Positions 44,743 through 48,627 of a stretch of 64,000 bases of DNA are shown piece by piece; the stretch's first letter is position 1; every line of letters starts with the position of its first letter. The notes beneath the pieces are model-generated. The model was not told the origin of the DNA. It did no database searches and saw nothing but the letters and a program-made list of their open reading frames with translations. The DNA comes from Mariniphaga sp. (GTDB lineage: Bacteria > Bacteroidota > Bacteroidia > Bacteroidales > Prolixibacteraceae). A program made the translations under genes and the position numbers. The stretch is from assembly GCA_024636975.1 (NCBI GenBank), contig JAGXGA010000042.1:1-64000 (forward strand). The letters are read 5' to 3'.

Positions 44743-46803
44743 TCATGGTAAATTAATAAATGGGGAAATTTTATTTACACAGGTGAGGTACAGCCGGTGC
44801 ATGGCACGTGTACAGGCAATGTACAGGAGGTTTCGGTCGTTCGGCTCGTGGTAATTTTTTGCATCTGTGCCCGGAATTACTACTTCATCGAATTCGAGCC
44901 CTTTCGACATAAATACTGCACAAACAATAATGCCCGTTGAAAAGGCAGCACTCTCTTCAGTAAGCAGAACGGCTTCAGGAAATTCAACCGCCAGGTCTTC
45001 ATATATATGTTTCGCCAGCTTTTGTGTTTTACAAATCACACCCATGGAATGATGATCTGATTTTTTGTATTCAGTGATACGATGTTTTATTGTATCCAGT
45101 TCTGCTGCTTTATTCCGGCATACTATAATTTCAGGTTCTTTACCATGTCGTTCCATGGCTTCCATTTCGGCATTTGGAATTATGGTTTGAGCGAATGTGG
45201 CGATTTCCCACGTTGAACGATAGCTTTTATTCAGCTTCATAATATCGGCGCCCGGAAATACCTTTGCGATTTCTTCGGATGAAGAAGAGCTAAAGGTGTT
45301 AACCGACTGACTGGCGTCACCCAATATCGTTTTTTTACAGGTAAACAATCTTGCCAGTACGGCATATTGAACAGGGGTATAATCCTGCATTTCATCTACC
45401 AGCAGATGTTTAACCTTACTGAAGGAAGTGATGCCCTCCAATTTATTTTTCAAATAAATCAGCGGGAATACATCGGCATGTTCATAGGTGCTGCCGGAAG
45501 CCATCTTCAGCATGCCGGGCATTTCCATCCATTGGAAGAAGTCTTTGTACAACGCACGAAGGGTTGTAATCCGGAACATGTTTTTTACCGATTTACGCAG
45601 CATATTTCGCTGTGTCGCCGAAATTTCATACTGGTTGTAAAAAAACAAATCACGCTCAATGTCCTCTACTATTTTGTTGAACCGTGCAAAAATAGGGAGG
45701 CGATGCCACGATTTAAACCGCTCGGAGATATAAGTATGAGGAACGGGATAACGGCTAACCATCAGTGTTTCGGCTTTAAAATAGTGGTTTTCGATGTAAG
45801 TAAGGTAATCATTTAGTCTGGCAATAAACTTAAAATCCGATTTAAACCGGATCCGTTCGGGCAGTGTTTCATCCTTCTTTTCAAGAAGGGCAGTCACCTG
45901 CTGGAAAAAGGTCTGGAATTTATACTTGTCCTCCAGCAGTTTGGTGGCAAGTTCTTCCATCCCCATTTCAGGAATGTTCTCCTCACCAAGTTCCGGTAGC
46001 ACGTTCGAAATATAATCGGAAAATACCTTATTGGGCGAAAGGATCAGGAGGTCTTTTGAGGAAATCTCCTCTTTAAAACGGTAGAGCAAAAAAGCTATCC
46101 TGTGAAGTGCAATGGAGGTTTTACCTGAGCCGGCCACTCCCTGTATTATTAGTTCTCTTGAAGTTTCATTCCGGATTATGGCATTCTGGTAGCGCTGAAT
46201 GGTTGCCACAATGTGATTCATTTTATCGTCCGACGATTTGCTTAGCTCCTTCTGCAAGACATCATCGTGGATATTAAGGGAACTTTCCAGCATATATTCC
46301 ATTTTTCCTCTGCGAATGCGGAACTGCCTTTTCAGCAGAATGTTCCCTTCAACCTGTCCTTCCGGAGTTTCATAATGAGCAGGGCCATTTTCGAAATCAT
46401 AAAAAAGGGTGGAAACAGGCGCCCGCCAGTCGTGGATAAGATTCTCCCTTTTATTCTCATCGAAGTATGCATGAATCCCTACATATACACAAAAAGCGTG
46501 TTCAGTTCCGTTTTCTATAAAATCGAACCGGCCGAAGTAGGGGGATTGCAACAGTTTCTGGATTCTTTTTTTTCTTTCCAGTGCAACTTCACCTGTCATA
46601 ACAGCGGCTGATACCGACTGACGCACTGCAACTTTCTCAAGGCGGTCCATGCCGGTTTTGTTTTCATACAAATAGTTTTTCTGCTCCTTCAGGTCCCTGA
46701 TGTAACCCGAAACTTTTTTATCGATTTCATCAAGCGCTTTACCTAACCTCTCTTTTACTTCCTTCAAATGCGCCCGCTCTATTTTTTCTGTTTTATTCAT
46801 CAT
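44743..46803 (-). CDS. HelD-like UvrD-family ATPase/helicase
   Basis: About 686 residues from the ATG at 46803 (MMNKTEKIERAHL). The 61-residue longer frame crosses the predicted promoter at 46910-46939 and is rejected. The N-terminal coiled-coil (HLKEVKERLGKALDEIDKKV), split UvrD domains with Walker A GVAGSGKTSIALHRIAF, LLVDEMQDYTPVQY and the C-terminal IACTRAMHRLYLTC match HelD, which releases stalled RNA polymerase. An exonuclease domain is absent. It is divergent from mgtE, with both promoters in a shared 202-bp region. Confidence 0.88.
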   Translation of the reverse strand: MMNKTEKIERAHLKEVKERLGKALDEIDKKVSGYIRDLKEQKNYLYENKTGMDRLEKVAVRQSVSAAVMTGEVALERKKRIQKLLQSPYFGRFDFIENGTEHAFCVYVGIHAYFDENKRENLIHDWRAPVSTLFYDFENGPAHYETPEGQVEGNILLKRQFRIRRGKMEYMLESSLNIHDDVLQKELSKSSDDKMNHIVATIQRYQNAIIRNETSRELIIQGVAGSGKTSIALHRIAFLLYRFKEEISSKDLLILSPNKVFSDYISNVLPELGEENIPEMGMEELATKLLEDKYKFQTFFQQVTALLEKKDETLPERIRFKSDFKFIARLNDYLTYIENHYFKAETLMVSRYPVPHTYISERFKSWHRLPIFARFNKIVEDIERDLFFYNQYEISATQRNMLRKSVKNMFRITTLRALYKDFFQWMEMPGMLKMASGSTYEHADVFPLIYLKNKLEGITSFSKVKHLLVDEMQDYTPVQYAVLARLFTCKKTILGDASQSVNTFSSSSSEEIAKVFPGADIMKLNKSYRSTWEIATFAQTIIPNAEMEAMERHGKEPEIIVCRNKAAELDTIKHRITEYKKSDHHSMGVICKTQKLAKHIYEDLAVEFPEAVLLTEESAAFSTGIIVCAVFMSKGLEFDEVVIPGTDAKNYHEPNDRNLLYIACTRAMHRLYLTCVNKISPFINLP

Positions 46804-46909
46804 TCTATTACAAGTCAGTCTGGGATTTATGTGTTTGTTCGAAGTTTTGCAGATTCCTTTCAGTTTACAATATCTCCGGATGATTTTACCGTTTTGTTTT
46901 TTGATGGCA

Positions 46910-46939
46910 CAAAAATAGAAAAAACAGGCGAGGGAACAA
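46910..46939 (-). promoter_or_regulatory. Reverse promoter of the HelD-like gene
   Basis: On the reverse strand TTG (46939-46937) and TATTTTTG (46917-46910) are separated by 19 bases, a good Bacteroidota -33/-7 pair. Transcription would begin near 46903, leaving a leader of about 100 bases. Confidence 0.6.
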
Positions 46940-46949
46940 TTACGACTTA

Positions 46950-46978
46950 TTTGCCATAAAGAAAAAACAATATCTTTG
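46950..46978 (+). promoter_or_regulatory. Promoter of the mgtE leader
   Basis: TTTG (46950-46953) and TATCTTTG (46971-46978) are 17 bases apart, matching the Bacteroidota TTTG/TAnnTTTG promoter. The start would be near 46985, which gives mgtE a 5' leader of about 290 nt. Confidence 0.65.
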
Positions 46979-47005
46979 TGCAGCAAATTTTAAAAGTTAC
47001 AACTC

Positions 47006-47056
47006 ATGGACGAAGGCCCGTGTCATAGAAATAAATTAATTCTAAATCATCACTAG
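47006..47056 (+). CDS. Leader ORF 1 (16 codons) of mgtE
   Basis: ATG at 47006 encodes MDEGPCHRNKLILNHH and stops at 47054-47056. It begins about 20 bases after the predicted transcription start. Its stop codon touches the first base of the GGAGGC segment that starts the switch, so a terminating ribosome would cover that segment. No Shine-Dalgarno is visible. Coding is inferred from the geometry, not from conservation. Confidence 0.4.
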   Translation: MDEGPCHRNKLILNHH

Positions 47057-47095
47057 GAGGCTCTTCTGTTGCCTCCAGAGATTAAAATAGGAGGC
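47056..47095 (+). promoter_or_regulatory. Candidate translational attenuator in the mgtE leader
   Basis: Segment A GGAGGC (47056-47061), segment B GCCTCC (47071-47076) and segment C GGAGGC (47090-47095) allow B to pair with A (9-nt loop) or with C (13-nt loop), but not both. Segment C holds the AGGAGG ribosome site of the next small ORF. Pairing B:C hides that site and A:B frees it. It is not an M-box by eye. The arrangement matches ribosome-mediated attenuators. Confidence 0.55.
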
Positions 47096-47101
47096 AAAAA
47101 C

Positions 47102-47182
47102 ATGTTTAAACTTTATTCATCCATCCGGATTACCCACATTACGTTATCTCTTTTGTTTCTTCGTCGGCACACTTATAGCTAA
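47102..47182 (+). CDS. Leader ORF 2 (26 codons) of mgtE
   Basis: ATG at 47102 lies seven bases after AGGAGG, one of only two strong Shine-Dalgarno sites noticed in the window. It encodes MFKLYSSIRITHITLSLLFL plus RRHTYS: a basic peptide with a short hydrophobic core. It ends 92 bases before mgtE. It is either a regulatory leader peptide or a genuine micro-protein. Confidence 0.45.
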   Translation: MFKLYSSIRITHITLSLLFLRRHTYS

Positions 47183-47274
47183 ATCCATACTTCTTCTGCC
47201 GTTCAAATCATTGAAATGTATTGATTTGACTCGCTTTTAATTTTTAATTCTTAACAACCGAAAGAAATTGGAAC

Positions 47275-48627
47275 ATGGAAGACGTAATGGTGCCGGTACA
47301 GGAATTCCAGGAGTTGATAGACCAGCGCGAATGGAAAAATTTAAGAGAGGAACTAAAAAAGCTTGACCCTGCCGATATAGCAGAAATAATAGAAGCCCTA
47401 AAGAGGGAAGGCGACGACATCATTCTGTTCAGACTCCTGCCGCGTGAAACAGCCAGGGAAACCTTCTTCAGGCTGGAATACGACAAGCAGGAAGAACTGC
47501 TGGAAGGCCTTGCCGACAGGAAGCATCTGCTTGCTGAATTACTGAACGATCTGGCTCCTGATGACCGTACCGCCCTGTTTGAAGAATTGCCTGGTCCGGT
47601 GACTCAGCGGCTCATCCAGTTACTTTCTCCGGAAGAACGGCGCATATCCATCCAGTTACTGGGCTATCCGGAAAGCAGTATCGGGCGATTGATGACTCCC
47701 GATTATGTTGCAGTTAAACCGGGAATGACAATTGAACAGGCACTTGACCACATTCGTCACTTTGGCAAAGATTCGGAAACACTGAACGTAGTTTACGTTG
47801 TGGATAAAAGCTGGAAGCTTATCGATGAGATCAGGTTGCGGGAGATACTTCTGGCGCGTCCTGACCAGACCATTGCCGACCTGATGGATAATCGTTTTGT
47901 TTCGCTGAACGTGCTCGACGACCAGGAACGGGCTATCAGTGCGTTTCACGACTATGACCGGATCGCCCTGCCGGTTATAAATTCAGAAGGTGTGCTTCTA
48001 GGAATCGTAACGTTCGACGATGTAATGGATGTGGAAGAAGAAGAAGCTACAGAAGACTTTCATAAATTCGGGTCTATTCAGGATTTTATTTTTAACCCGC
48101 TAAAGGCAAAGATTACTCTTCTATATCGAAAGCGAATCCTGTGGCTTGTTGTTCTGGTATTTATGAATGTATTTTCGGGAGCGGCACTGGCCAATTTTGG
48201 AGATGTTATTGAGTCGATGGTATCACTCATTTTTTTTCTGCCCCTGCTCATTGGCAGCGGCGGGAATGCCGGGGCACAATCAGCTACTCTTATGATACGT
48301 GCATTGGCCACAGGCGATGTGGAACTTTCCGACTGGCTTAAGCTTTTGGGTAAAGAATTGCTTGTAGCCCTAATGCTTGGGATAACCATGGCATTGGCAG
48401 TGGGACTAGTAGCCAGTTTTCGTTCACCGGAAATAATTGTTGTGGTGGGATTATCAATGATCTTTACTGTGCTTATAGGCAGTATTCTGGGCCTGTCGCT
48501 TCCGTTTGTATTTACCTTGCTGAAGCTTGACCCTGCAACGGCAAGTGCACCACTTATTACTTCGCTGGCCGATATCTCGGGAGTATTTATTTATTTTTCA
48601 ATAGCTACCTGGTACCTGGGAATATGA
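47275..48627 (+). CDS. mgtE: Magnesium transporter MgtE
   Basis: 450 residues with the full MgtE plan: N-terminal superhelical domain (about 1-130, DPADIAEIIEAL and LLAELLNDLAPDDRTALFEELP), two CBS domains (about 130-255, with SIGRLMTPDYVAVKPGMTIEQAL and DRIALPVINSEGVLLGIVTFDDVM), a plug helix and five membrane helices with the pore motif GSGGNAGAQSATLMIRALATGD. It admits Mg2+ and closes when the N and CBS domains bind it. The long leader with a mutually exclusive hairpin suggests expression control. Confidence 0.95.
   Translation: MEDVMVPVQEFQELIDQREWKNLREELKKLDPADIAEIIEALKREGDDIILFRLLPRETARETFFRLEYDKQEELLEGLADRKHLLAELLNDLAPDDRTALFEELPGPVTQRLIQLLSPEERRISIQLLGYPESSIGRLMTPDYVAVKPGMTIEQALDHIRHFGKDSETLNVVYVVDKSWKLIDEIRLREILLARPDQTIADLMDNRFVSLNVLDDQERAISAFHDYDRIALPVINSEGVLLGIVTFDDVMDVEEEEATEDFHKFGSIQDFIFNPLKAKITLLYRKRILWLVVLVFMNVFSGAALANFGDVIESMVSLIFFLPLLIGSGGNAGAQSATLMIRALATGDVELSDWLKLLGKELLVALMLGITMALAVGLVASFRSPEIIVVVGLSMIFTVLIGSILGLSLPFVFTLLKLDPATASAPLITSLADISGVFIYFSIATWYLGI

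Follow-up and report, generated by a model that had tools for sequence, protein, structure and literature searches.

The window, by which we mean the whole 64-kb stretch of Mariniphaga sp. DNA that was analysed, contains on its + strand a gene for the Mg2+ channel/transporter MgtE (47275-48627, ATG at 47275), whose product of 450 amino acids matched Pfam MgtE (3.1e-34) as well as MgtE_N and CBS. Upstream of this gene lies a leader on the same strand, which consists of a promoter, two short open reading frames and three short segments. The promoter (46950-46978) is composed of TTTG at 46950-46953, a 17-nt spacer and the -7 box TATCTTTG at 46971-46978; it is of the Bacteroidota TAnnTTTG type with a -33-like TTTG, and it sits just upstream of 47006-47182, the region delimited by the original prediction. 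ORF1 (47006-47056, 16 codons, ATG at 47006, TAG at 47054-47056) encodes the leader peptide MDEGPCHRNKLILNHH, and segment A (GGAGGC, 47056-47061) shares its first G with the ORF1 stop. Segment B (GCCTCC, 47071-47076) resembles an anti-Shine-Dalgarno (anti-SD) sequence and could pair with either A or segment C (GGAGGC, 47090-47095), which is the SD-like site of the next frame and corresponds to the SD of corA or mgtE in relatives. This next frame, ORF2 (47102-47182, 26 codons, ATG at 47102, TAA ending at 47182), encodes MFKLYSSIRITHITLSLLFLRRHTYS and is possibly a remnant of a corA deletion. All of the parts that had been predicted (promoter, ORF1, A, B, C and ORF2) were present in the sequence of the window. 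On the - strand, a gene for a UvrD/HelD-like superfamily 1 helicase (44743-46818, Pfam UvrD-helicase) is divergent from the leader; the equivalent interval showed no such gene in Mariniphaga anaerophila (G002), which belongs to the same genus as the genome of the window (G000).

Short open reading frames and repeats of six nucleotides are common, and a GGAGGC/GCCTCC arrangement next to short frames could have arisen by chance and have no function. However, the ordered triple GGAGGC..GCCTCC..GGAGGC occurred once in the 64-kb window and in none of 100 dinucleotide shuffles, and conservation and co-evolution extended across many families, so that chance is a negligible explanation. The fold of the 61-nt A-B-C stretch gave a modest signal (z = -2.04, with 8 of 200 shuffles equally good); the comparative evidence, in which ORF1 and the promoter box were kept elsewhere and A, B and C changed together, is stronger. 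With the Rfam covariance models, no family reached the gathering score in the 64-kb window and none reached E<=5 in 46900-47300, while six related loci gave two tRNA matches only, both in the locus L127. A riboswitch of a known class was rejected on these grounds, and the same result separates the leader from the known Mg2+ riboswitches (M-box/ykoK and the mgtA leader). In L127 (1100-1269, genome G541), two tandem tRNA genes lie directly upstream of the corA leader.

Conservation of the leader upstream of corA

A DNA search with the leader of the window matched the ORF1 start in 2 of 60 genomes, both times upstream of corA and not of mgtE. Leader-type CorA gave matches in 74 of 140 genomes of the family of the window, Prolixibacteraceae (E<=1e-30), and the ORF1 leader was found upstream of the gene for this CorA-type Mg2+ transporter in 59 of the 61 family genomes examined. 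The count was made on 60 upstream regions, 57 of them with ORF1 by pattern, together with L165, which also had it; 13 of the 74 corA matches were left out. One of the 60 regions was truncated where its contig ended, and the leader belonging to it turned up on a different contig (L163). The two exceptions in the family were L057, with a degenerate ORF1, and L071, without ORF1. A looser ORF1 pattern was found in 52 of the 140 family genomes, and comparison of the coordinates by eye placed 47 of the matches upstream of leader-type corA, two upstream of mgtE and three elsewhere. The strict patterns fit the MDEGPC type only, so that their low counts (8 of 140 family genomes for a strict degenerate form; 1 of 296 genomes in a scan of the phylum, namely that of the window; nine stretches in the wider genome contigs, of which that of L015, Bifidobacteriaceae, fell within a long, unrelated frame) are no evidence that the leader is missing elsewhere.

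Over the order of the window, Bacteroidales, CorA searches matched 34 of 159 and 84 of 393 genomes. Among 83 of these 84 corA upstream regions (G689, with 67 nt only, was left out), a short open reading frame starting with M-[D/E]-[D/E] was present in 60, and it occurred in 35 of 40 families. The forms of this upstream open reading frame (uORF) included MDEGPYH, MDDYHSEY, MDDPNSRTY and MDDSNPRTY. It was absent from the other 23 regions, two of which (L106 and L229) contained MDGVP- variants. In three of the 60 (L111, L181 and L182), the uORF stop lay 92-96 nt before the transporter start and there was no GGAG; these uORFs may represent a different device from the rest. Those of L181 and L182 (family f136), which stand before leader-type corA, also start with acidic residues and lack GGAG, and at 27 and 30 codons they are longer; this version is perhaps decayed or different. 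In the rest of the phylum, the short acidic-start frame was found in none of 30 canonical corA upstream regions, taken from the best-scoring 30 of 153 matching genomes; the query for this control was Pfam CorA (PF01544), and leader-type CorA was searched within the order only.

The features of ORF1 were examined in 62 leaders, consisting of 61 from the family, including those of the window and of genome G018, and that of L020 (Plebeiobacterium marinum), which was not among the family matches. ORF1 had 12 or 14-17 codons, and the distance from its stop to the transporter start (to ORF2 in the window) was about 41-59 nt, the shortest being 41 nt in L078. In the 61 distinct leaders, codon 2 was always Asp or Glu and codon 3 always Asp, Glu or Ser, and codon 5 was Pro in 52; the MDDYH type of ORF1 often lacked Pro. 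A TAnnTTTG box, the promoter consensus reported for Bacteroidota (PMC7366714), was found in the 60 nt before ORF1 in 55 of the 57 leaders of the family, with the end of the box 22-33 nt from the ATG, while in 200 letter shuffles of the same stretches it turned up in 1.2 of 57 on average and in 5 of 57 at most. A bias was also seen at the wobble positions: Asp-2 was encoded by GAC rather than its synonym in a ratio of 55:2 in the distinct leaders versus 61:49 in seven corA genes, and Pro-5 by CCG in 43 of 52 versus 25 of 96. The bias of ORF1 at the codon level is not explained by coding alone. It falls in codons 2-5, at 47009-47020 in the window. Pairing of the conserved ORF1 codons (P) with A, B or C was considered and rejected, as no clear co-evolution was found (256, 306 and 595 of 3000 permutations for P:A, P:B and P:C, respectively).

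Alternative pairing and the Shine-Dalgarno sequence of the transporter

The two starts of the leader differed in their use of the SD. GGAG or AGGA was present at -20 to -4 of 56 of 57 transporter starts versus 2 of 57 ORF1 starts in the family, and of 52 of 59 transporter starts versus 2 of 59 ORF1 starts order-wide (59 of the 60 leaders). Segment C contained GGAG(G) in 61 of the 62 leaders, and GGAG preceded the start of none of 36 long open reading frames of the window (six frames, first Met, at least about 160 amino acids, some of them possibly not genes). By these counts, ORF1 seems to start in the ordinary way, without an SD, and the SD-bearing start of the transporter seems to be the special case. 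Order-wide, 51 of 60 regions with the uORF had GGAG no more than 25 nt from the transporter start, versus 3 of 23 without it (Fisher 1.4e-9; p = 0.0026 with one genome per family), which implies that the SD and the uORF tend to occur as one unit.

Ribosomes of Bacteroidia have been reported to ignore SDs owing to sequestration of the 16S tail (PMC9976891). The transporter SD in C might be read by a subset of ribosomes with an exposed anti-SD, such as those lacking bS21, and shortage of Mg2+ would then both abort ORF1 and enrich such ribosomes; we consider this special-ribosome reading unlikely. If it were true, the leader would be an AND gate with two inputs, in which ordinary ribosomes would sense Mg2+ through their failure on the SD-less ORF1 and SD-competent ones would then translate the transporter.

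The competition of A and C for B was examined across leaders. The A, B and C regions were set by a fixed rule, and the duplex energies of each leader's own segments were compared with those of segments swapped between leaders, in set 1 (41 of 60 leaders after redundancy filtering, 40 from the family plus L020) and in an order set (56 of the 60 uORF-bearing leaders, distinct and with 40-75 nt from stop to start), with the leader of G004 in both. In set 1, A:B gave -13.39 kcal/mol for own versus -9.22 kcal/mol for swapped segments, and B:C gave -14.17 versus -11.40; in the order set, the values were -11.30 versus -7.13 for A:B and -14.01 versus -9.03 for B:C. None of 5000 permutations was as good in any of the four comparisons, and the A:C control was flat (2021 of 5000 in set 1 and 2237 of 5000 in the order set); since the leaders are related, these counts cannot be taken as strict probabilities, but the same relatedness applies to the A:C control, which shows nothing. 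The predicted A:B and B:C pairings thus co-evolve. RNAalifold on a MAFFT alignment gave no consensus pairs; in these leaders A and C compete for B, and the loop lengths vary.

The pairing was also placed relative to ORF1. In 105 of the 111 leaders that were folded (of 114), the hairpin predicted on the A:B side had its 5' arm overlapping positions -3 to +14 relative to the ORF1 stop, although the distance of the A arm was only slightly tighter to the ORF1 stop (sd 7.8 nt) than to the ORF1 start (sd 9.0 nt). With a ribosome modelled at the ORF1 stop, the mean probability that the SD was unpaired fell from 0.18 to 0.02, and it was lower in 47 of 59 leaders (59 of the 60). The original prediction held that translation of ORF1 covers A, so that B closes C; this core idea was supported by the comparative tests, in which related leaders retained the three segments.

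Folding at equilibrium favoured B:C even without the ribosome. In the window, the predicted energy was -13.3 kcal/mol for the A:B hairpin alone and -12.5 kcal/mol for B:C when A was blocked, and the probability that C was unpaired barely responded to blocking A (0.25 when free and 0.22 when blocked). When B was blocked, this probability was 0.02, as C then paired with TCTTCTG beside A. Because C is mostly closed at equilibrium and blocking B does not free it, the ON state would need co-transcriptional folding of A:B or a helper. The B-blocked result makes the attenuation reading slightly weaker and slightly strengthens a reading of the opposite sign, in which translation of ORF1 would make the start of the transporter accessible, either through reinitiation or by removing structure.

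Such a positive uORF has a precedent in MgtQ of Salmonella, which was reported to be required for the translation of mgtB (PMC8092293), and the mostly closed C of the ribosome-free leaders would fit it as well. On the other hand, the modelled ribosome at the ORF1 stop closes C further, and the stop lies on or beside A and not on B, a position that would protect B:C. In the family leaders, about 41-59 nt separate the stop from the transporter start, a long distance for reinitiation of a simple kind. We therefore regard the opposite sign as quite unlikely, and closure of C upon completed translation of ORF1 is the reading kept below. As one of the segments that can pair with B is the transporter SD, the layout of the leader favours SD occlusion over Rho-dependent termination.

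The mgtE version in the window

The version of the leader in the window differs from those of its relatives. The relatives keep an intact ORF1 and the promoter box, and ORF2 was seen in this window only. The original prediction had placed the ribosome site of ORF2 on C, but C is normally the SD of the transporter itself (corA mostly, and mgtE in G018), so that the regulated frame would be the transporter. The start of mgtE lies 92 nt downstream of ORF2.

ORF2 resembles CorA at both ends. Its N-terminus, MFKLY, resembles MLKIF/MIKIF of CorA, and its end, LSLLFLRRHTYS, resembles the CorA C-terminus: over 12 residues no other ORF tail in the window (2602 compared) scored as high, and over 14 residues 7 of 2602 tails and 119 of 20000 shuffles of the ORF2 residues did so, with the CorA stretch for this comparison picked after the resemblance had been noticed. 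DNA alignment of the ORF2 region to seven corA 3' ends and their flanks gave no match there. These observations are only suggestive of ORF2 being the scar of a lost corA, with the two ends of CorA fused.

In M. anaerophila, a leader followed by corA lies between a gene that we presume to be thioredoxin-like and an M20 peptidase gene. Since the matching interval of the window contains the leader and mgtE, this suggests that the transporter was swapped while the leader was kept, in inverted orientation. The leader of the window may be a relic, with corA lost, ORF2 as its scar and mgtE expressed outside its control. The leader and corA beside the M20 peptidase gene in M. anaerophila, the resemblance of ORF2 to fused CorA ends and the 92 nt before mgtE would all fit such a relic, and no coupling structure stood out. 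Structural coupling of ORF2 and mgtE was not supported by folding and was set aside (z = -0.65; 54 of 1000 shuffles, which is borderline).

Against a relic, ORF1, the promoter and A, B and C are all intact in the window, and no TAnnTTTG box was found from the ORF1 stop to mgtE. Furthermore, the closest MgtE found, that of G018 with 66% identity to the MgtE of the window, has the leader directly at its start with C as its SD, which shows that this type of MgtE can be a target of the leader. A relic is a real possibility on balance, if a doubtful one, and control of mgtE by the leader is less certain in the window. If the attenuator were still working there, the switch would act on ORF2, and mgtE, 92 nt on, would follow through polarity or coupling, or its control may be partly lost.

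Magnesium and the proposed mechanism

The same leader stands before CorA in most of the genomes that have it and before MgtE in G000 and G018, and these are unrelated families of Mg2+ transporters. At E<=1e-30, no leader-type CorA was found in G000 or G018, whose assemblies are 95% and 91% complete, so that its absence is not certain. Of the three putative Mg2+ transporters found in G000, one carries the leader; a second MgtE (C48:13498-14811), preceded by a gene that we take to be ksgA, and a canonical CorA (C12:65705-66571) do not. As the leader precedes both CorA and the unrelated MgtE, the ion rather than the protein is suggested as what is sensed. The original prediction had offered Mg2+, the state of the ribosome or an amino acid as the signal, and Mg2+ fits best because Mg2+ transporters of two unrelated families follow the leader and the start of ORF1 is acidic, usually with Pro.

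We consider that the leader is probably a ribosome-operated translational attenuator for Mg2+ importers, in which Mg2+-dependent drop-off from ORF1 opens the SD of the transporter. ORF1, which lacks an SD, would be started by ordinary ribosomes. Its start (M-D/E-D/E, usually followed by G/D-P or by Y-H) is acidic, usually with Pro, the kind of sequence that would destabilise the ribosome when Mg2+ is scarce. With sufficient Mg2+, the ribosome would reach the ORF1 stop on or just before A and cover A, so that B:C would form and close the SD of the transporter; at low Mg2+ it would drop off near the ORF1 start, A:B would form, C would be free and the transporter would be made. Comparison of sequences establishes several elements of this scheme: the conserved parts, the co-evolution of the two predicted pairings, an ORF1 stop that falls on A or close to it, and the association with Mg2+ transporters of two unrelated families. 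That Mg2+ is the signal, that drop-off at the acidic start senses it and which way the response runs are what we infer from them.

The acidic start also bears on an explanation in which the architecture is right and the signal is another one. ORF1 might encode a peptide that arrests or slows translation in response to some other state, such as that of an amino acid, of polyamines, of ribosome quality or of a factor like an ABC-F protein. Conservation of codons 2-7 in both amino acid and nucleotide, beyond the codon usage of corA, is as expected for a specific interaction, and some types of ORF1 (MDDYH and MDDSNPR) are not EPDP-like. This conservation is N-terminal, however, and a nascent chain is too short at 2-7 residues to extend far into the tunnel, which counts against this explanation. 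No codon of a single amino acid was repeated in the leader peptides, judged by eye, and the downstream genes encode Mg2+ transporters of two unrelated families. We regard a signal other than Mg2+ drop-off as unlikely. An amino-acid biosynthetic attenuator was likewise rejected, as no run of the codons of one amino acid was seen by eye in the leader peptides of the family and order. A point against drop-off at the acidic start of ORF1 comes from E. coli, in which an EE or DE pair alone was reported to have no EttA-dependent effect, with DPEE as the minimum (PMC11282234). The frequent lack of Pro in the MDDYH type, the 23 of 83 corA regions of the order that have no uORF and the wobble bias of ORF1 also weigh against the proposed attenuator.

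Among the systems described elsewhere, MgtL of E. coli and Salmonella is close to the Mg2+ attenuator proposed here. Its EPDP stretch was reported to act by destabilising the ribosome, with full translation repressing mgtA and drop-off at low Mg2+ derepressing it via alternative RNA folding (PMC11282234). The ORF1 leaders share with it a short uORF with an early stretch of acidic residues and Pro before a Mg2+ transporter; unlike them, MgtL is described in that source as acting on Rho-dependent transcription termination, whereas in the present leaders pairing involves the transporter SD and control looks translational. CorL, also of E. coli and Salmonella, is a uORF before corA whose translation was reported to control corA inversely through two competing structures (PMC11552253). 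It resembles the present leader in its position ahead of corA and in the competing structures, which are predicted here, and it differs, as presented there, in being Rho-dependent, with a three-way junction, a UUG start and fewer acidic and Pro residues, and in belonging to Gammaproteobacteria.

MgtQ, the uORF between mgtC and mgtB of Salmonella, was reported to act translationally, with Asp2 and Glu5 destabilising the ribosome and competing stems deciding the ribosome site of mgtB (PMC8092293). Competing stems, one of which hides the ribosome site of the transporter, are likewise indicated here by prediction and co-evolution. As that source describes it, however, MgtQ lies between two genes of an operon, has 8 codons and a strong SD, and uses stems 1:2 and 3:4 against 2:3, while 55 of 57 of the present leaders carry a promoter box of their own 22-33 nt ahead of ORF1, 2 of 57 have GGAG or AGGA before ORF1, and the stems are A:B against B:C.

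On the side of the SD, the parallel is rpsU (bS21) of Flavobacterium, which was reported to be autoregulated through its SD, a rare conserved strong one among ribosomes that hide their anti-SD (PMC9976891). The conserved strong SD at the start is common to both (GGAG(G) in C, set against its lack before the long ORFs of the window); unlike the present genes, rpsU encodes a ribosomal protein and has a longer SD, and the excerpted text of that source describes no uORF switch. The corA motif, a leader upstream of corA proposed to be a metal riboswitch, was reported from Gammaproteobacteria and metagenomic sequence only (PMC6429828), and the conserved parts here are instead a uORF and an SD switch. 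Small uORFs were also reported in the leaders of Mg2+ transport genes in TRPM7 mRNA of vertebrates and in the Mbox uORF of M. tuberculosis (PMC4227784, PMC12810186); the former is a eukaryotic leader and the latter a riboswitch acting on a uORF, and neither, as excerpted from these sources, has the A/B/C-SD arrangement.

No description of this element was found in the literature searched, whose coverage did not extend to most subscription journals or to bioRxiv preprints. We know of no earlier bacterial Mg2+ leader outside Proteobacteria in which the uORF's own translation is the likely sensor, and as far as is known the leader would be the first of this kind. If the proposed mechanism is true, a known trick, an acidic start that is left untranslated at low Mg2+, would be joined to a different output, SD occlusion, in an order with members in the gut and in the sea. 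An SD conserved at the transporter start, where ribosomes reportedly hide the anti-SD, offers a direct test case for regulated use of the SD; and if the special-ribosome reading were true, the leader would give a second example of regulated pairing with the SD, in a phylum believed to have almost given up such pairing.
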